From: Myxococcales bacterium
GTDB lineage: Bacteria > Myxococcota_A > Polyangia > Polyangiales > JAFGIB01
Length of the DNA: 43,304 bases
Direction of reading: 5' to 3'
NCBI GenBank assembly: GCA_028817905.1
Contig: JAPPOR010000984.1
Location: 1-43,304 of the forward strand
The position numbers and the translations under genes are program-made. Shown piece by piece: positions 20,000 to 38,845 of the stretch; position 1 is the stretch's first letter, and each line of letters opens with the position of its first letter. Under the pieces are notes generated by a model. It saw only the letters and a program-made list of their open reading frames with translations. It was not told the origin of the DNA and did no database searches.

Positions 20000-21031
20000 T
20001 CATGTCACAACCCATTTCCCCTGGTTGAGAAGATCCTGCACGCCCTTGCCTGCGGCGTGTCCGGCAGTCGTGAGCTGCTCGTTCAGCAAGTGTTCGTAGG
20101 TAGGGCGCTCTACCGCGCGCATGACACCGATGGGAGTCGGCACGTCAGGGCCCGTCAGGCGGCTAACCACGAGAGAGCACATCTCGTTTGTCTCGTCGAA
20201 CACCATCAGTCGATCCTCGCCAACCTCCGCGACGTCTACGACCTGAGGGTTCAGAGATCCGTCAAGCACGATTCCCTTCTCCCTTTGCTTGCCGAATCGC
20301 ATGGGCTTGCCATGCTCGAGTTCTAGCGTGGTGTCTTCACGGCGCGTCTTGTCGGTGAGCTGCACGAACTCCCCGTCGTTGAAGATCGGGCAGTTTTGGT
20401 AGATTTCGATGAAGGACGTTCCCTTGTGTTCGGCACCACGCTTGAGGATCTCCGGCAGGTGCTTCAAATGGGTGTCCAGTGTGCGTGCGACGAACGTGGC
20501 GCCGGCACCCAGGGCCACGTGGATCGGGTCGAGCGGGTAGTCGATGGAGCCCATCGGTGTCGACTTGGCCTTGGTGCCGAGCTGGGACGTGGGGCTGTAC
20601 TGTCCCTTCGTGAGTCCGTAGATCCGGTTGTTGAAGAGCAGAACGTTGACGTCTACGTTTCGCCGCATCAAGTGGATGAAGTGGTTGCCGCCGATGGACA
20701 GCCCATCGCCGTCGCCAGTGATGAGCCACACCGACAGGTCGGGTCGCTGACTCTTGATGCCTGTGGCGAAGGCCGGACCGCGGCCATGAATACTGTGTAT
20801 CCCGTAGGTATCCATGTAGTAGGGGAACCGACTGGAGCAGCCGATACCGCTGACGAACACGTAGTTCTCCTTGGGAATGCCCAGGCCCGGCAGGACCTTC
20901 TGCACTTGTGCCAGGATGGAGTAGTCACCACAGCCCGGGCACCAACGCGGATCGACGTCGGAGGCGAAATCCTTTTTCGTCTGTCCACTTGGGTCGGTGT
21001 GGGTGACCGCGGGGTACACAGAATGGGCCAT
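20000..21031 (-). CDS. korB: 2-oxoacid:ferredoxin oxidoreductase beta subunit (2-oxoglutarate type)
   Basis: The 343-residue beta subunit binds thiamine diphosphate and a [4Fe-4S] cluster. CPGC (Cys31, Cys34), Cys65 and Cys214 match the four cluster ligands of this family, and GDGDGLSIGGNHFIH (from about residue 106) followed by NVLLFNN is the thiamine diphosphate/magnesium motif. GGAGG lies eight bases before ATG 21031, and the korA stop overlaps this start by one base (TGATG), so the two are translationally coupled. With KorA it converts 2-oxoglutarate to succinyl-CoA or the reverse, using ferredoxin. A related 2-oxoacid (for example pyruvate) as substrate cannot be excluded. Confidence 0.9.
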   Translation of the reverse strand: MAHSVYPAVTHTDPSGQTKKDFASDVDPRWCPGCGDYSILAQVQKVLPGLGIPKENYVFVSGIGCSSRFPYYMDTYGIHSIHGRGPAFATGIKSQRPDLSVWLITGDGDGLSIGGNHFIHLMRRNVDVNVLLFNNRIYGLTKGQYSPTSQLGTKAKSTPMGSIDYPLDPIHVALGAGATFVARTLDTHLKHLPEILKRGAEHKGTSFIEIYQNCPIFNDGEFVQLTDKTRREDTTLELEHGKPMRFGKQREKGIVLDGSLNPQVVDVAEVGEDRLMVFDETNEMCSLVVSRLTGPDVPTPIGVMRAVERPTYEHLLNEQLTTAGHAAGKGVQDLLNQGKWVVT

Positions 21032-22881
21032 CAGTTTGCCTCCAGGTGGGTCGCGAGCGCTTCGACGATCTCTCGTTCCTTGTACGGTTGCCCCTCGATC
21101 TTCGGCAGGCTGACCGCATCAACCAGGAAAGCGGATCGCAGCAGCTTCACGAGCTGGCCGTTGTTGAGTTCAGGCACGAGCACCCGCTCGTAGCGCCCAA
21201 TGACATCGCTGAGATCACGCTTGAACGGATGAAGGTGCCGCAAGTGAACATGCGCGATTTTGTGGCCTCGCGCCCGCATTTGTTGCACGCCAGCGCGAAT
21301 CGCCCCAAACGTGCTTCCCCAGCCGACGACAAGGGTGCCGCTTTCGTCCCCAAAGACCTCGGTTGGGGGTAGGTCTGCCGCTACGTTCATGACCTTTTCG
21401 CTGCGCAGCTTGACCATCCGTTCGTGGTTTTGCGGATCGTAGCTGATGTCGCCGGTGAGGTCCTCCTTCTCGAGTCCTCCGATCCGGTGCTCTAGGCCGG
21501 GCACCCCGGGGATGGCCCAGGGGCGCGCACCTCGCTTGTCGCGCTGGTAGGGCATGTATCCCTCGGGGTCGGTCCTAAACTGGACGTCGATCGGCGGGAT
21601 TTTGGACATGTCGGGGATGGGCCACGGTTCGGAGCTGTTCGCGATGTAGCCATCGCTAAGCAGTAGCACCGGGGTCATGTAGCGGATCGCGATCCGACAC
21701 GCTTCGATCGCCGTGTAGAAGCAATCGCCGGCACTCTGGGGCGCCACGACGGGCACGGGCGCTTCGCCGTTGCGGCCGAACAGGGCCTGCATCAAGTCGG
21801 CTTGCTCGGTCTTCGTCGGCAAGCCCGTGCTCGGTCCTCCGCGCTGGACGTCGACGATGACGAGCGGAACCTCCAGGATATGGGCAAGGCCGATCGCCTC
21901 GGCTTTGAGGGCAAGTCCCGGACCGCTGGTGGTGGTCAGGGCGAGGCCGCCGGCGTAAGCGGCGCCGATGGCGGCGCAGGCCGCGGCGATCTCGTCTTCC
22001 GCCTGGAACGTTCTGACGCCCAGGCCCTTGTGTCGCGCAAGAAAATGCAGAATGTCAGAGGCAGGCGTAATCGGGTAGGAGCCGAGGAACAGCCCAAGCC
22101 CACTGAGTTCAGCGGCGGCCAGGAAGCCCAGGCCAAGCGCCTCGTTGCCGGTAATGCTGCGATAGACTCCCGGCTCGATTTGGGCGCGCTGCACCTCGTA
22201 GTGCTGTTCGAACATCTCGGTCGTCTCGCCGAAATTGTAGCCAGCCCGCAAGGCACGCAAATTGGCTTGCGCCAGCAGCGGCTCCTTGAACTTGTTGTTG
22301 ATCCAGCCTTCGGTGTGGGCCATGTCGCGGTTGTAGAGCCAGTACACGAGCCCCAATGCGAAGAAGTTCTTGCACCGCACCGCCGCTCGCGTATTCAGGC
22401 GCAGCTCCTCGATCGACTTGAGGGTCATGCCCGTGATGTCGGCCGAGAACACCCGATAGTTCTTGAGCGTGCCGTCCTCGAGCGGGTTGGCTTCGTAGCC
22501 CGCCCGTTTGAGGTTCTTTTTTGTGAATTGCTCGGAGTTGGCGATCAGAATACCGCCATGTCGCAGGTCCGGCAGGTTGACGCGTAGCGCGGCAGGGTTC
22601 ATCGCCACGAGTACGTCCGGCTGGTCCCCCGGCGTGTGGACTGCGACGCTGGAGAAATTGATCTGGAATCCAGAGACCCCCGCCAAGCTCCCCGCCGGGG
22701 CCCGGATCTCCGCGGGGAAGTCCGGAAAAGTGGCAAGGTCGTTGCCAGCAAGGGCGGTCGTGTCGCTGAACTGGGTGCCGGTGAGCTGCATGCCATCGCC
22801 GGAATCGCCGGCGAACCGAATCGCGACGGTTTCAACCGTCTGTACTGCTTTGTCCATCTTCCTGTAGTGGCCTTTCTCCAT
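21031..22881 (-). CDS. korA: 2-oxoacid:ferredoxin oxidoreductase alpha subunit (fused gamma-alpha)
   Basis: This 616-residue protein joins a gamma domain (IRFAGDSGDGMQLTG near residue 25; about 1-190) to an alpha domain (about 200-616) with the pyrimidine-binding block LGSYPITPASDILHFLA. This fused arrangement is standard for two-subunit 2-oxoglutarate:ferredoxin oxidoreductases. A second ATG at 22857 (MDKAVQTVETV) is an alternative start; neither has a convincing Shine-Dalgarno. It lies 193 bases downstream of sucA on the same strand, so two enzymes for the same step are adjacent. Confidence 0.92.
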   Translation of the reverse strand: MEKGHYRKMDKAVQTVETVAIRFAGDSGDGMQLTGTQFSDTTALAGNDLATFPDFPAEIRAPAGSLAGVSGFQINFSSVAVHTPGDQPDVLVAMNPAALRVNLPDLRHGGILIANSEQFTKKNLKRAGYEANPLEDGTLKNYRVFSADITGMTLKSIEELRLNTRAAVRCKNFFALGLVYWLYNRDMAHTEGWINNKFKEPLLAQANLRALRAGYNFGETTEMFEQHYEVQRAQIEPGVYRSITGNEALGLGFLAAAELSGLGLFLGSYPITPASDILHFLARHKGLGVRTFQAEDEIAAACAAIGAAYAGGLALTTTSGPGLALKAEAIGLAHILEVPLVIVDVQRGGPSTGLPTKTEQADLMQALFGRNGEAPVPVVAPQSAGDCFYTAIEACRIAIRYMTPVLLLSDGYIANSSEPWPIPDMSKIPPIDVQFRTDPEGYMPYQRDKRGARPWAIPGVPGLEHRIGGLEKEDLTGDISYDPQNHERMVKLRSEKVMNVAADLPPTEVFGDESGTLVVGWGSTFGAIRAGVQQMRARGHKIAHVHLRHLHPFKRDLSDVIGRYERVLVPELNNGQLVKLLRSAFLVDAVSLPKIEGQPYKEREIVEALATHLEAN

Positions 22882-23074
22882 CCGAGCGACAAGCGGGGTG
22901 CCGTCCGAGCACGGTCGCGGGATCAGTTTCTTCTTTCTTGGCCCTGTTCCACAGGGGTGGCCGACGCCTTTGCCGATGCCTCAGGATCGCCGCCCAACCC
23001 GCGGACTCTACTACATGTCGGGGCCTGGTCGCCACTGTCATGGCGCCCCACCAGGGATCCTCGCGGACCCCACT
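22882..23074. other. sucA-korA spacer with a small hairpin
   Basis: No gene was seen in these 193 bases. A perfect 5-bp stem with a 5-base loop (CCCTG TTCCA CAGGG) lies at 22942-22956, without an adjacent U-tract on either strand. The spacer is long enough for a separate korAB promoter, so sucA and korAB need not share one transcript. Confidence 0.35.
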
Positions 23075-26023
23075 TTAGCCTTTCAAATCAAACGCTTCGG
23101 CGATCAACTTGGCCTGTTCGAGCTTGTGCGCTGCCAGGCTTCCCGTCGCTGGGCTGGCGCTTTCAGGTCGCGACACGCAGCGTAGGGTGAAGCGCTCCCC
23201 CACCATTTCTGGCAGCCGGGCGCGCATCATGTACCAGGCCCCCATATTCCATGGTTCTTCCTGGACCCAAATGAGGTCTTTGGTCCCCTCGTACGGCTGC
23301 AGGACTTCTCGAACGTGGTCCGGGTTGAGCGGGTACAATTGCTCGATCCGGATGATGGCCACGTGGTCAGCTCCGCGTGATGCCCGCTCCGCGGCCAGCT
23401 CATAGTAGATCTTGCCCGAGCACATCAACACGCGCGTCACGCTCTTCGGATCGGTGTCTCCCTGGTCGGGAATGATGCGCTGGAACCGTCCTTCTGCGAG
23501 GTCCTCCATCTTGCTCGAGGCGGCCGGGGCGCGCAGTAGGCTCTTTGGGGACATGACGATCAGCGGCTTGCGGAAGGGCCGCAGCACCTGCCTACGCAAC
23601 GCGTGGAAGAACTGCCCCGGCGTCGTCAGGTTGCACACCTGCATGTTGTCTTCGGCGCACAGGGTTAGCCAACGTTCTAGGCGAGCGCTCGAGTGCTCGG
23701 GCCCCTGACCCTCAAAGCCGTGGGGCAACAGGCACACCAGGCCGCTCAGCCGATACCACTTGTCTTCGCTTGATGACAGGAACTGATCGATCAGAACCTG
23801 CGCGCCGTTGCAGAAGTCGCCGAACTGCGCCTCCCAAATGGTGAGGCCATCCGGGGTGTCCAGGCTAAAGCCGTATTCGAAGCCAAGAACTCCGGCTTCG
23901 GAGAGTGGGCTGTCCCAAACCTCGAAGCGGCCCTGATCATGCGAGAGAAACGCCAGCGGCGTGTACAGACGTCCGGTCAGGTTGTCGTGCAGCACCGCGT
24001 GCCGGTGGCTGAATGTCCCCCGTCGAGCGTCCTGGCCGCTGAGTCGGACGGGGGTCCCTTCCGTGACCAGCGAGGCATAGGCGAGCGTCTCGGCTGTGCC
24101 CCAGTCTAGGCCGCGTTTGCCTGTGCCTTGGTCGCGTCGCTGTTGCATCAGGCGCTTGAGTTTCGGGTGGACGTTGAAGTCGCCCGGGACATCCGTGACC
24201 CGTACAAGCAGATCGCGCAACCGATCCATCGGAACGGCCGTTTCCACCTCTTCGCATTCCGGGTCCTTTCCGCCCCTGTATCCAGCCCACAGACCCTGCA
24301 TCGAGTAGGCTGGAGGGACGAACCCCTGTTCGCGCGTAGCTGCAAGCGCCTCTTCGAGCACCGCTCGACGGGCCTTCTCGATGTCCTTGGCCTTGTCTTC
24401 TGTTACGCTGCCCAGTTCGACGAGGCGCCTGACATAGACTTCGCGTACGGATGGCTTGGCGTCGACGGCCGAGTACATGATCGGTTGGGTGAAGCGCGGC
24501 TCGTCCGCCTCATTGTGCCCATAGCGCCGGTAGCAGTACATGTCGATGACGACGTCTCGGCCGTAGCGCTGGCGGAACTCCATGGAGAGCTGGACCACCT
24601 GGGCAACCGCTTCCGGGTCCTCGCCGTTGACGTGGAACACCGGGCAACGCAGCATGCGGGCTATATCCGTGCAGTAGCGCGTCGAGCGTGAATCGTGCCA
24701 GTTGGTCGTGAAGCCGATCTGGTTGTTGATAACGACGTGCACGGTGCCGCCGGTTGTGTAGCCGCGCAGCTCGCCGAGGTTGAGGGTTTCGGCCACGATG
24801 CCTTGACCGATGAAGGCTGCATCGCCATGAATCAGGAGCGGCACGACCTTCTTGCGCTCCAGGTCGCCCCGCCTGTCCTGCTTGGCTCGCACGCGCCCCG
24901 TGACCACCGGGTTGACGAACTCCAGGTGGCTGGGATTGAACGCGAGGGTAAGGTGGATCTTGTGCCCGTTGGCCAGTACCCGGTCCGATGAGTAGCCCAT
25001 GTGGTACTTCACATCCCCGCCGCCCATGACCAGTTCCGGGTTTTCGTCCTCGAAACCGGCGAAGATCTCTTTGAGGCTCTTCTCCATGACGTTGGCCAGG
25101 ACATTGAGGCGGCCGCGGTGGGCCATTCCGATGACGACCTCTTCGATACGGTGCTTGGCCGCCTCGTCGATCACGAGCTCGAGCAATGGGATGATGCTCT
25201 CGGCGCCCTCAAGGGAGAACCGTTTCACGCCCACGTACTTGGTGTGGAGGAACTGCTCGAAGATCTCCGCGTCGATGAGCTTTGACAGAATGCGCACCTG
25301 CTGGTCGTGTGCGAGATCTATCCGGTTGCAAGTCGACTCCATGCGCTCTTGGAGCCAGCCGCGGATCTCGGGCTCCTCGATGTTCCGGTACTCGGCACCG
25401 ATCGTCCGGCAGTACGTCTCTTTGAGGCGGCGAACGAACTCTCGCAGAGGGAGCTTTGAAGGCCCGGCGAAGTTGCCGGTTGCGAACATCGTGTCCGGAT
25501 CTACATCTGCCAGGCGAAAGCGTTCCAGGGACAGCTCGCTCATATCGGGCGGCTCGAGGTCCAGTGGATCCACGTTGGCAAAACGGTGACCACGCATGCG
25601 GTAGCCATTGACCAGGGCGGTCATGTGCTCCTGGTATTCTTGGTTCAGTCCACTCTCGTCCGGCATGACCCACCGGCCGACGCTGGTCGTGGGTGCGTAG
25701 TCGTCCAACGCGCCGCCTCCGCCGAACCCATTGCCATTGGTCGCGTCTTGCGCTCCGTTCTGGGGAGGGTGCGGTTCTGCGGGGAGGGCCGAAGCGTTGT
25801 CGTTGGCGCCCGTGCGACCGGGCCGCTTCGGCCCCGCCAATAGCTCAGCGCCCGGCGAGCATGCTGGAGGTGGTGGAAGGGTTGCTGAGCGTAGCAACTT
25901 CGCCTTGTCTGCGACGGTCATGCTTTCGAAGTACCGCTGCCAGCTCGCGTCAACCGCCCGTGGATTCTCTCGGTAGCGAAGGTACTGCTCCTCGACCAAG
26001 CCCTGGTTTATGCCGAAGTCCAT
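23075..26023 (-). CDS. sucA: 2-oxoglutarate dehydrogenase E1 component
   Basis: E1 decarboxylates 2-oxoglutarate and passes the succinyl group to E2 lipoate in the TCA cycle. The 982-residue length is near the usual 930-1000. The N-terminus (NQGLVEEQYLRYRENPRAVD) is typical for docking to the complex. MAHRGRLNVLANVMEK lies near residue 298 and the thiamine diphosphate/magnesium region GDAAFIGQGIVAETLNLGEL begins near 396. ATG 26023 follows GAAGGA by five bases. The E2 (sucB) and E3 (lpd) genes are not next to it; korAB follows instead. Confidence 0.96.
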   Translation of the reverse strand: MDFGINQGLVEEQYLRYRENPRAVDASWQRYFESMTVADKAKLLRSATLPPPPACSPGAELLAGPKRPGRTGANDNASALPAEPHPPQNGAQDATNGNGFGGGGALDDYAPTTSVGRWVMPDESGLNQEYQEHMTALVNGYRMRGHRFANVDPLDLEPPDMSELSLERFRLADVDPDTMFATGNFAGPSKLPLREFVRRLKETYCRTIGAEYRNIEEPEIRGWLQERMESTCNRIDLAHDQQVRILSKLIDAEIFEQFLHTKYVGVKRFSLEGAESIIPLLELVIDEAAKHRIEEVVIGMAHRGRLNVLANVMEKSLKEIFAGFEDENPELVMGGGDVKYHMGYSSDRVLANGHKIHLTLAFNPSHLEFVNPVVTGRVRAKQDRRGDLERKKVVPLLIHGDAAFIGQGIVAETLNLGELRGYTTGGTVHVVINNQIGFTTNWHDSRSTRYCTDIARMLRCPVFHVNGEDPEAVAQVVQLSMEFRQRYGRDVVIDMYCYRRYGHNEADEPRFTQPIMYSAVDAKPSVREVYVRRLVELGSVTEDKAKDIEKARRAVLEEALAATREQGFVPPAYSMQGLWAGYRGGKDPECEEVETAVPMDRLRDLLVRVTDVPGDFNVHPKLKRLMQQRRDQGTGKRGLDWGTAETLAYASLVTEGTPVRLSGQDARRGTFSHRHAVLHDNLTGRLYTPLAFLSHDQGRFEVWDSPLSEAGVLGFEYGFSLDTPDGLTIWEAQFGDFCNGAQVLIDQFLSSSEDKWYRLSGLVCLLPHGFEGQGPEHSSARLERWLTLCAEDNMQVCNLTTPGQFFHALRRQVLRPFRKPLIVMSPKSLLRAPAASSKMEDLAEGRFQRIIPDQGDTDPKSVTRVLMCSGKIYYELAAERASRGADHVAIIRIEQLYPLNPDHVREVLQPYEGTKDLIWVQEEPWNMGAWYMMRARLPEMVGERFTLRCVSRPESASPATGSLAAHKLEQAKLIAEAFDLKG

Positions 26024-35830: not shown

Positions 35831-37435
35831 CTATGTTGGATCGACCATCCCCTCGCCGATCAAGCGCAGCGCCGTGATGCTCGGCACAAAGAAATACTCT
35901 CCGCCGCGGGTCTCGACGAAGCGTGGCATGCCTCCACACAGGAACGGGGGCCTACCGCCGCCGGGTTCGGCCTCAATCGTCATGCGACCATCGCCCTTGC
36001 CTTCTGGGGTAGTCCCATGGTTTCCGATGATCGGGTCCCTGTCATTTCCGAGCCGGAAGTCGTTCCCGTAGTTCACCCATTGCTGCTGCACGAACTCGAA
36101 CTGACGACGAATGTTGGCCCCCAACGCCATGAAGACGATCCCGTGCTCGCCGGTATCGTCTTGGGGGTCTACGACCGAGCCGTATGGTAGCCCCCTGCGC
36201 AAGATCCGGCGTCGATTGGTCAGCGCCCCACGGGTATCGAAGGCGAACGCCTCGCCGAACTCGAGCGACCCGCGTGGGTTGGTGCGCCGAATATGAGCGC
36301 CCACCGGGCAACCCGCGCCTGGCAGGTCCTTGGAGTAGTCGAACGCGACGAACTTGGCGTTCAGTTGGGCGAACGCAGCCTTCGCCTCTTCGCGGGCCGG
36401 GCCCTTGGGAGTCTGTTGGATCTTCAGCTTGGCAGCCATCCATTGCTGCGCGAACGCTTCGGCTTCGGCTTCCGTTGGGAACGTCGTTACCGGAGCACCG
36501 TTGCGCCATCGACCCGCGAATTTTGCCGCCAGCGCTTCCTTGCCACCTGGGTACTCCGTGCCGACCGCGTCGAGGTACCGGTTGAAGGAGCCGACATTCT
36601 GATGGAGCTTTCGATACACCATGTAGGTGCCGTTGCGGCCCAGCAGAGGCGGCATGGGCGCTTCGGGGAATTCCTGCGCCTCGTCCTTGTAGCCGAGCAG
36701 GAACTCGCCGGTTTCCAGGGGCTCCCAGCCCGCCCGCGTGGTGGCGTCTCGGCGCGTGACCTTGCCCCCCCCAAGGACGTTTTCGGGGTGTTCCCCGGTG
36801 CCCTTGAAGTATGGATTGCCGATCCCGTCGGTGTACCCAAAGTGCTCCTTGGGGGTCGGCTTGCCATCGATCTCGATCGCCGAAGCTGCCTGGTAGGGCA
36901 TGTCGTTTCGCCCTTCCGGATCGCGATGTCCCGTGAGGCAGCGAACGCCTGCTCGGTAGCGCCCGGTGATATCCGTAACGAAAGCGTAGGCTGTCTCGAT
37001 CGCGTCCCGGGAAACCCCATTTATCGTGATCAGTACGTGGATGCGGTGCGGCTTCCGCCATACCGGGTCCCAACGCTCGGGACCGCTTGGGCCATCATCG
37101 CCGAGGATTGCGCCGCGCCCTCGCATGCCCGTGGCGAACTCTGGCGAGAACGTGAGCAGAGATGCTTGAGGCAGCCCGAGCATGCGCAGACCCGCGAAGG
37201 TCAGGGCGACGTTCAACGTGGACTCCGGACGCTCTTCGGTGCTCCCGCGACCCCACGGCGCTGAGGTGGTGACACGCTCGGCAAGCGTGGCGATGAACCC
37301 TCTTCCTGCCTGGCCATCCGTAATCTCGAACAGCACGTAGCGCGCGTGCGAGTAGTCGTATCGACTGTAGGCCTTGACGATATTGCCTTGAATATCGTGA
37401 AGGTCGAGCGTCACAGGGCTTCCGGGTGTGCTCAT
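35831..37435 (-). CDS. DyP-type heme peroxidase
   Basis: ATG 37435 overlaps the stop of the upstream gene by four bases (ATGA), giving 534 residues; the open frame runs on to 37990, but that part is a shadow. FGYTDG at 199-204 is the DyP GxxDG motif with catalytic Asp203, His381 in VGAHIRRTNPR is the proximal heme ligand, and NRRRILRRG near 407 supplies the distal Arg. The long form resembles large DyPs. No signal peptide was seen, so it is probably cytoplasmic. It should oxidise dyes, phenolics or other donors with hydrogen peroxide; the natural substrate is unknown. Confidence 0.92.
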   Translation of the reverse strand: MSTPGSPVTLDLHDIQGNIVKAYSRYDYSHARYVLFEITDGQAGRGFIATLAERVTTSAPWGRGSTEERPESTLNVALTFAGLRMLGLPQASLLTFSPEFATGMRGRGAILGDDGPSGPERWDPVWRKPHRIHVLITINGVSRDAIETAYAFVTDITGRYRAGVRCLTGHRDPEGRNDMPYQAASAIEIDGKPTPKEHFGYTDGIGNPYFKGTGEHPENVLGGGKVTRRDATTRAGWEPLETGEFLLGYKDEAQEFPEAPMPPLLGRNGTYMVYRKLHQNVGSFNRYLDAVGTEYPGGKEALAAKFAGRWRNGAPVTTFPTEAEAEAFAQQWMAAKLKIQQTPKGPAREEAKAAFAQLNAKFVAFDYSKDLPGAGCPVGAHIRRTNPRGSLEFGEAFAFDTRGALTNRRRILRRGLPYGSVVDPQDDTGEHGIVFMALGANIRRQFEFVQQQWVNYGNDFRLGNDRDPIIGNHGTTPEGKGDGRMTIEAEPGGGRPPFLCGGMPRFVETRGGEYFFVPSITALRLIGEGMVDPT

Positions 37436-38148
37436 CGGCTTGCTCCGGTTGGTACGCTGCGCAGGTATTGGGGTGGCGGGTTCGGGTCGATTACGGCGTC
37501 GTCTAGGGTGCGGGCTCCCGGCTTCCAGGTTGGGCCCGACAGATCGTGGGGTCGCGTTCGCGTGAGAAACTGCCCGAAGGCGGCTTGCAGTTCGGCGCCC
37601 TTCTTGCCCTGATGCTCGAACGCAAAGCGTGAGAACTCCTGCTTCAGATAGAGGTTCTTGAGTTGTTCCGCGAGCGGCTCGTCGGTGGAGCCGTTGAAGT
37701 AGAGGGTGTTCTCCACCTGGCACCGCTTCACATACCTGACAAACGCATCCGATGAAGAAACGGTGTCGAAGCCCACACAGTGCTCCCACAGGCTGCGCAC
37801 CGTAGGTTCGGCATGCTCCCACATTCCTTCCAGGTAGCGCCTGAGCCCCTCTTCGCTCTTCTTTCCTGCGTGTAGGTCTGCGACGAACACCAGGTAGCTC
37901 GAGCGTAGGCGGTCGAGCTTGGCCGGATCGCCCTGGTAGGCGACGTTGTCGAGGACGAGAAACCGACAAAGATAGGTGTTGGGCACGCACGCCATCGGGC
38001 TCTCCGCCGCCTCATTCAGGTCCTGCAGCAGGTCGCGCGTCCGGGCGGCGAACGATCGCGCGGGCTTGCCCGGTTGTGGGGCTTCCGCACCGTGCTTGAT
38101 GGGGCACAGGGCCGTCAGCCCATAGGCGCGGCCGGCTTCATTCGGCAT
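37432..38148 (-). CDS. DyP-operon partner protein 1, function unknown
   Basis: This 238-residue protein matches no family I can name. It starts MPNEAGRAYGLTALCPIKHG, very like its upstream neighbour (MPNIAGKAF...TPIE). Further shared landmarks are a Y..R[FW] block (59-67 here), a L...YL.F stretch, a W near 121, and FVRYVKRCQV at 136-145 against FHRYVEHNEV. The two are therefore diverged paralogues. It has no signal peptide or membrane segment. The start overlaps the upstream gene by 11 bases and the stop overlaps the DyP start by four, so all three are translationally coupled. Confidence 0.75.
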   Translation of the reverse strand: MPNEAGRAYGLTALCPIKHGAEAPQPGKPARSFAARTRDLLQDLNEAAESPMACVPNTYLCRFLVLDNVAYQGDPAKLDRLRSSYLVFVADLHAGKKSEEGLRRYLEGMWEHAEPTVRSLWEHCVGFDTVSSSDAFVRYVKRCQVENTLYFNGSTDEPLAEQLKNLYLKQEFSRFAFEHQGKKGAELQAAFGQFLTRTRPHDLSGPTWKPGARTLDDAVIDPNPPPQYLRSVPTGASR

Positions 38149-38845
38149 GACTGCCTCCCATCATCGCTGGGGCGCGCCCGGAATCCTGCTCGTCACCGGC
38201 CTCGGCATCTTGCCGCATACGCTCCTCGACGGCGGCATTGGCCAAGCTGACGATCGGTGTGGGCGCCATTTGGCTCAGGTCGGCCTGCAGTTCGTTCAAC
38301 AGCTCATTGTACGCTTGCTCAAAGGCGGCGGCCTCCATGTCCTTGGTCCGGCTGGCGAAGCTGGTCAGGGCCTGCTTCACCCTTTGTGCCGACTTCACGT
38401 CGTTGGAGGCTGCCATGGGATAGGCGCTGTAGTAGTGAGAGGTCCAGACCTCATTGTGTTCGACGTAGCGGTGGAAGGGCTGTTCTGGGACCGCCTTCGG
38501 CCAGCCTACGTTGCGGAACCAGAGCAGGTTGAGTCCCGAGGGGATCGCTACCGAAAACGAGTCGACATACTGCGCCCAGCTTCCGTTGAAGTTGCTGAAG
38601 AAGAGCTGATAGGCGTAGTGCAGCTTCTCCTTTGGCTGCGACTCGTCCAGTCTCGGCCACTCAGTGGGTTGGACGATCGCCCAGCGCGCATAGTGGATCA
38701 TCGACAGCGTGACCAGGCCGCGCAGGGAGAAGCTCAAGATCGGTTGCCGGATCGCCCAAAACTGGATCTTGTTGAACGCCGCCTGCCAGCGCTCGATCGG
38801 CGTGATCAAGTTCATGGCGAAGGCCTTACCAGCGATGTTTGGCAT
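38138..38845 (-). CDS. DyP-operon partner protein 2, function unknown
   Basis: First gene of the DyP unit, 235 residues, function unknown. A G-rich ribosome-binding site (AAGGGGGG) precedes ATG 38845. Landmarks are MPNIAGKAF at the N-terminus, IHYARWAIV at 50-58, YQLFFSNFNGSW at 79-90, IPSGLNLLWFRNVGWP near 101-116, and FHRYVEHNEV at 124-133. Conserved His, Arg, Trp and Tyr residues suggest a ligand- or lipid-binding fold or an enzyme active site, which is speculation. A hydrophobic stretch at about 38-52 is too short for a confident membrane segment. Confidence 0.75.
   Translation of the reverse strand: MPNIAGKAFAMNLITPIERWQAAFNKIQFWAIRQPILSFSLRGLVTLSMIHYARWAIVQPTEWPRLDESQPKEKLHYAYQLFFSNFNGSWAQYVDSFSVAIPSGLNLLWFRNVGWPKAVPEQPFHRYVEHNEVWTSHYYSAYPMAASNDVKSAQRVKQALTSFASRTKDMEAAAFEQAYNELLNELQADLSQMAPTPIVSLANAAVEERMRQDAEAGDEQDSGRAPAMMGGSHAE

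Follow-up and report, generated by a model that had tools for sequence, protein, structure and literature searches.

An undescribed family of paired proteins accompanies a DyP-type peroxidase in a Myxococcales bacterium and in related loci

The window analyzed here is a stretch of 43,304 nucleotides from a Myxococcales bacterium (GenBank assembly GCA_028817905.1, contig JAPPOR010000984.1). Three overlapping genes on its minus strand encode two proteins, A and B, and a DyP-type heme peroxidase. A and B were found to be diverged paralogues of one protein family, for which we propose the name AB, and an AB gene accompanies the DyP gene in every locus surveyed. It is very likely that A, B and DyP act as one unit, with the AB pair as a dedicated DyP partner. 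The best explanation overall, to which we assign a probability of about 0.55, is that A and B form a heterodimer that serves DyP in a lipid hydroperoxide pathway.

Results

The A-B-DyP unit
The unit consists of the following features.
38138..38845, minus strand: gene A, 235 amino acids, AB family of "copy 2" type, IHYARW and FFSNFNGSW blocks conserved
37432..38148, minus strand: gene B, 238 amino acids, AB family of "copy 1" type
35831..37435, minus strand: DyP-type heme peroxidase, 534 amino acids, no signal peptide by eye
38138..38148, minus strand: overlap of A and B, 11 bases
37432..37435, minus strand: overlap of B and DyP, 4 bases (ATGA)

The coordinates bear out the claim of the preliminary description that the genes form a coupled unit. 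The sequence blocks that it named as common to A and B are also present: MPNIAGKAF in A and MPNEAGRAY in B, HYARW (A 51-55) and YLCRF (B 59-63) for the pattern (H/Y)(Y/L)xR(W/F), and FHRYVEHNEV (A 124-133) and FVRYVKRCQV (B 136-145) for FxRYV....V.

A and B are diverged paralogues, as had been proposed from these blocks, and BLASTP, a shuffle test and profile-profile comparison all agree on this. BLASTP aligned A with B at E 6e-6, collinear across residues 1-191. The local alignment scored 74, a value reached by none of 2000 shuffles (maximum 59); without the first ten residues the score was 60 and was reached by one of 2000. The profile-profile comparison gave E 4.9e-19 across 192 columns.

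Neither gene has a Pfam match or an NCBIfam match above cut-off; NF041416 was rejected for A (15.3 bits against a cut-off of 140). An AB profile was started from A and iterated over the collected loci, which gave 59 copies in 39 reading frames. It matches A (E 2e-30), one of the sequences that seeded the initial profile, and B (E 1e-19), which entered during iteration; the DyP gene lies next to the pair. No convincing Pfam, NCBIfam or PDB match was found for the family. The match of the profile to PDB 3pe7, an oligogalacturonate lyase, was judged to be chance (E 9.8e-5 overall, best single stretch 0.037 over 42 columns), and four families found in a Pfam scan of 52 AB copies were rejected, each occurring in one or two members. 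Judged from its sequences, AB is an undescribed protein family. The His of its HFAR block is nearly constant (67 of 73 copies); Tyr takes its place in the B proteins of the window and a proteobacterial metagenome-assembled genome (MAG; locus L006), and Glu does so in A of Granulicella. Transmembrane helices were found only in some proteins with two AB copies and in B of L006, which starts with a hydrophobic helix. By eye, the order of the motifs fits the beta-alpha-beta-beta-alpha-beta order of a dimeric alpha+beta barrel (ferredoxin-like), a candidate fold without Pfam or PDB support.

A and B correspond to the two copies of tandem proteins
Two AB copies lie in one chain in 24 tandem proteins, which account for 48 of 73 copies, and in several of these a strongly hydrophobic segment separates the copies. 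An unrooted maximum-likelihood tree of 57 copies (supports given as ultrafast bootstrap/SH-aLRT) splits copy 1 and B from copy 2, the single copies and A (97/84), and groups A with copy 2 (90/80). Since the tree places A with the second copy and B with the first, A and B together look like the split form of one two-domain protein. The order is reversed in the window relative to the tandem proteins, the gene of copy 2 type (A) standing first.

Domains that are fused in many genomes usually act together, and an A:B pair is therefore the simplest reading. The heterodimer suggested earlier is thus a predicted one, with indirect support from the tandem proteins and from the tree, which assigns A to one copy type and B to the other.

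AB genes accompany DyP genes in every surveyed locus
Two surveys were made. An A-type profile had matches in 23 of 144 related genomes, and a broader AB profile in 12 of 282 genomes sampled from the whole phylum. Counting every match at E<=1e-3 in the two surveys gave 38 distinct loci, and in all 38 a DyP was encoded in the same chain as AB or within about 1.1 kb of it. The preliminary description named a lack of neighbourhood conservation outside this genome as a refutation, and this conservation was found to be strong: besides the 38/38 loci, the A-B-DyP trio occurs in the same order on a plasmid of the acidobacterium Granulicella (L007) and in the proteobacterial MAG, in which a P450 gene of opposite orientation begins 85 bases away from A.

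AB-DyP pairs also occur beyond the phylum, in named Alphaproteobacteria, Deinococcus, Acinetobacter and Streptomyces plasmid records. Plasmid records were picked for variety (7 of 39 and 11 of 44) and stand outside the 38/38 count; two of the seven opened among the 39 carried the DyP name in the match row. Two further loci, L100 and L101, came from a P450 search and were not counted as independent.

All four DyP loci found in the genome of the window carry AB. The fourth cassette (L056:9804-12225, contig C755) encodes AB-DyP as a single chain and ends at the contig edge. Two others (L054:3524-10515 and L055:646-7643) closely resemble each other: in each, AB stands with a DyP whose P450 half has diverged strongly, and a cyclase gene follows 13 bp downstream. 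The cyclase gene of L054 encodes an adenylate-cyclase-AAA-TPR protein. In Sinorhizobium (L107:4950-7956) two AB genes flank DyP, and a NIPSNAP gene lies between DyP and the second AB.

The peroxidase
The window protein scores above the curated cut-offs for PF21105 (DyP_N; 39.4 against 27.5 bits) and PF20628 (Dyp_perox_C; 26.2 against 20), and just below that of TIGR01413 (95.9 against 100.5). It scored 22.6 bits against a cut-off of 428 for the EfeB deferrochelatase/peroxidase family (TIGR01412). The best solved relative is the Deinococcus radiodurans DyP (DR_A0145; PDB 8re2, 8re3) with E 2.1e-52. The predicted catalytic residues D203 (Asp of GXXDG), H381 (proximal His) and R413 (distal Arg) align to D189, H324 and R348 of that enzyme, as the residues are named in its description (PMC10820274). 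Among DyP stretches of more than 300 residues, H381 and R413 are each retained in 45/45 and D203 in 43/45. By domains and catalytic residues the protein is a DyP-type peroxidase, with heme binding and peroxidase activity predicted.

It shares both domains and the catalytic residues with the class V-like DyPs (PF21105/PF20628), and differs from others of that class in having an AB partner in every surveyed locus and in being neither encapsulin cargo nor EfeB. The absence of an encapsulin gene near DyP, noted earlier for the surroundings, extends to the whole genome (95.6% complete), in which PF04454 had 0 matches; a control search had matches in 3 of 14 named genomes.

At pH 7.5 the D. radiodurans enzyme showed no activity, and what its physiological substrate may be is a question posed by its authors (PMC10820274). 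In a D. radiodurans isolate we found the DyP gene with an AB gene immediately ahead of it and a catalase-like gene after it; this DyP gene matches PDB 8re3 over all 445 chain residues. The enzyme thus resembles the window DyP in its catalytic residues and its adjoining AB gene, although this is a single AB gene of the catalase-linked type and not an A+B pair. The enzyme was studied by itself, with no partner protein, and its description does not use the terms operon, catalase or neighbor (PMC10820274). The lack of its AB partner would explain the inactivity simply and in a testable way.

A third heme enzyme
The mapped set comprises 46 loci, the 38 from the surveys and eight more from plasmids or MAGs. 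Of these, 26 have a third heme enzyme, a P450 in 20 and a catalase-like protein in 6, with both in none. Many of these enzymes are fused to the cassette. Single chains were found with the order P450-AB-AB-DyP (L009, L013 and also L101), AB-DyP-P450 (L049, L089, L091), patatin-AB-DyP-P450 (L050; patatin E 1.9e-22) and AB-AB-DyP-catalase-like (L059). AB stands beside a fused DyP-P450 in L047, L048, L054, L055 and L095-L097, and a catalase-like-AB-AB chain stands beside DyP in L058. The DyP-P450 proteins of the window's own genome (contigs C473 and C243) have a highly diverged P450 half that was reached by iterating the P450 profile; Pfam misses this half in the one protein scanned, that of L054.

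The Cys ligand is kept in 20/20 P450s, while the acid of the I-helix acid-alcohol pair is missing in 19/20, the exception being L034. P450s without this acid, which serves O2 activation, tend to use peroxides rather than O2 and NADPH. The self-sufficient P450s discussed in PMC13049297 are in line with this.

An allene-oxide-synthase-type residue before the distal His of the catalase-like proteins was considered and dropped, since the assignment of the distal His is ambiguous. In Sinorhizobium (L100:4857-7774) the gene of a P450 akin to those of the cassettes overlaps one annotated as "peroxidase family protein", which has a weak match to the alpha-dioxygenase profile; neither AB nor DyP was found in the 11 kb read.

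Fatty-acid genes beside the cassettes
Homologues of fatty-acid alpha-dioxygenase lie beside AB-AB and DyP in L041, L042 and L045, two of which also have a catalase-like gene. The L042 homologue matches PF03098 (E 2.9e-116) and, as its best PDB match, 4kvj (E 3.1e-119), one of the structures of the plant enzyme (PDB 4kvj, 4hhr). In the alignment to 4kvj the Tyr region reads YRLH opposite YRMH, and the pattern YxWH gave no match. Two conserved genes without a Pfam match occur in these alpha-dioxygenase cassettes (L042:7048-8235 and L042:11056-11532, with relatives in L041 and L045), the Pfam scan of the first having been done on its L041 form.

The only full-length alpha-dioxygenase found in the window's own genome lies on another contig (C513; L063:105-3101, minus strand). 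It is a 998-residue fusion of a catalase-like domain, of the same kind as in the cassettes, and an alpha-dioxygenase-type domain (PF00199, E 7.4e-12; PF03098, E 1.1e-95).

Annotated records of alphaproteobacterial, Deinococcus and Acinetobacter origin carry further fatty-acid genes. Catalase-AB-DyP was found with oleate hydratase, 3-hydroxyacyl-CoA dehydrogenase and thioesterase; with oleate hydratase and 3-hydroxyacyl-CoA dehydrogenase; with thioesterase and patatin; and, in further records, with 3-hydroxyacyl-CoA dehydrogenase alone. A fatty-acid gene is present in 7 of the 18 annotated AB records opened (L101 left out), all seven catalase-linked and some of them close relatives.

Surroundings in the window
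One flank of the A-B-DyP unit carries genes for an extensin-like protein and an ABC transporter by Pfam scan, and the other a transglutaminase gene and two genes without a Pfam match. The window copy is a minimal cassette of A, B and DyP only, without P450 or catalase. Elsewhere on the same contig stretch, at 20000-26023, lie what we take to be genes for 2-oxoacid:ferredoxin oxidoreductase-like subunits, which adjoin a 2-oxoglutarate dehydrogenase E1-like gene.

Discussion

The third enzyme, the fatty-acid context and the signalling neighbours of some cassettes are the best lead to function. Most likely A and B form a heterodimer that is dedicated to this DyP subgroup. The pair would probably sit at a membrane face and supply the DyP heme with the hydroperoxide of a lipid (a fatty acid); alternatively, it may relay the oxidised product to a second heme enzyme, which would be a catalase-like protein or a P450 that runs on peroxide. 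Such a module would constitute a bacterial route, independent of NADPH, for the synthesis or removal of oxidised fatty acids. For the window, further steps beyond A, B and DyP would be supplied from elsewhere in the genome. Action on lipid hydroperoxides as such is somewhat better than an even chance in our estimate, well below our confidence in the three-protein unit.

Several observations weigh against this interpretation. By the profiles used, no P450, catalase-like, alpha-dioxygenase or patatin gene is present in the 43 kb of the window. Neither a P450 nor a catalase-like gene was found in 20 of the 46 mapped loci, although a few of these 20 are cut by contig ends, and 11 of the 18 annotated AB records are without a fatty-acid gene of the kind described. 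No clear transmembrane helix is present in A or B of the window. AB and DyP profiles, built from small and large sets, have no similarity to each other. The AlphaFold models of A (pLDDT, predicted local distance difference test, 42.6; beta-alpha-beta-beta-alpha) and B (pLDDT 40.5; all-helical), both from a four-row alignment of the window and L006 only, are poor and unusable.

A more far-reaching version, which we regard as tentative and rather unlikely in full, makes AB the obligate partner of the whole DyP subgroup and AB-DyP with its P450 or catalase-like enzyme a bacterial oxylipin machine built on DyP, the product of which would feed the cyclase or kinase neighbours. If true, it would account for the lack of activity of the D. 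radiodurans DyP at physiological pH in the absence of other proteins.

The strongest competing explanation, though a doubtful one at around one chance in five, is general peroxide defence, in which DyP removes H2O2, AB acts as a chaperone for heme loading or as an assembly factor, and the P450 and catalase-like genes are unrelated oxidative-stress neighbours. The closest solved DyP relative comes from the radiation-resistant D. radiodurans, the Granulicella cassette has Fur, TonB receptor and katG genes downstream, and the nearly constant AB His could touch the heme. However, the D. radiodurans enzyme is inactive with H2O2 at physiological pH (PMC10820274), P450s are fused into the same chain as AB or DyP, and defence against H2O2 is not the role of patatin, alpha-dioxygenase or oleate hydratase genes.

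Less probable still is the tailoring of a secondary metabolite, with AB as substrate carrier while DyP and the P450 or catalase-like enzyme oxidise a natural product. Chemistry of this sort typically goes with P450s and with large genomes like these, which look myxobacterial, and different partners occur on the same cassette, but no polyketide or peptide synthetase was found beside the cassettes with annotation or Pfam results, where lipid genes recur instead.

Least probable is a signalling or conflict system in which the oxidised product is a message read by neighbouring proteins: an adenylate-cyclase or Ser/Thr-kinase gene lies within 400 bp of the cassette in 20/46 loci (cyclase-AAA-TPR or kinase-AAA by Pfam in the examples scanned), but no such neighbour is present at the window, L006 or Granulicella, and chance and relatedness inflate the count. 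Kinase and cyclase genes of this kind are frequent in large myxobacterial genomes, and because of this and the relatedness of the loci we take these neighbours as a lead. An anti-phage system was considered and rejected; PADLOC matched only the kinase, cyclase and patatin domains, as it generally does for such domains, and had no match for A, B or DyP.

The nearest known systems include, besides the D. radiodurans DyP, oxylipin synthases. Fungal linoleate diol synthases and allene oxide synthases fuse a heme dioxygenase to a self-sufficient P450, and the Nostoc 10S-dioxygenase pairs with a catalase-related lyase (PMC13049297). P450 and catalase folds likewise alternate in AB-DyP loci. In contrast to those systems, the fused heme peroxidase of the AB-DyP loci is a DyP in place of a cyclooxygenase-type enzyme, and none of the loci lacks AB. 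The window holds neither part of a dioxygenase-P450 synthase, and related loci have DyP in the place of the dioxygenase. Likewise, the alpha-dioxygenase homologues that flank AB-DyP in three loci have no counterpart in the window. Among titles and opening lines of abstracts in the open-access literature, with subscription papers and preprints outside the search, we found no AB-like partner and no DyP-P450 or DyP-catalase unit. Pairing of heme dioxygenases with P450s or catalase-related proteins is already known; the core here is the undescribed AB family.

The physiological role of DyP peroxidases is described as still largely unknown (PMC11107159). The presence of AB in every surveyed locus, together with the fusions to a P450, a catalase-like protein and a lipid-releasing enzyme, makes the role of this DyP directly testable. 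If the proposed pathway is correct, bacteria would have a further, DyP-based route to oxidised fatty-acid products.

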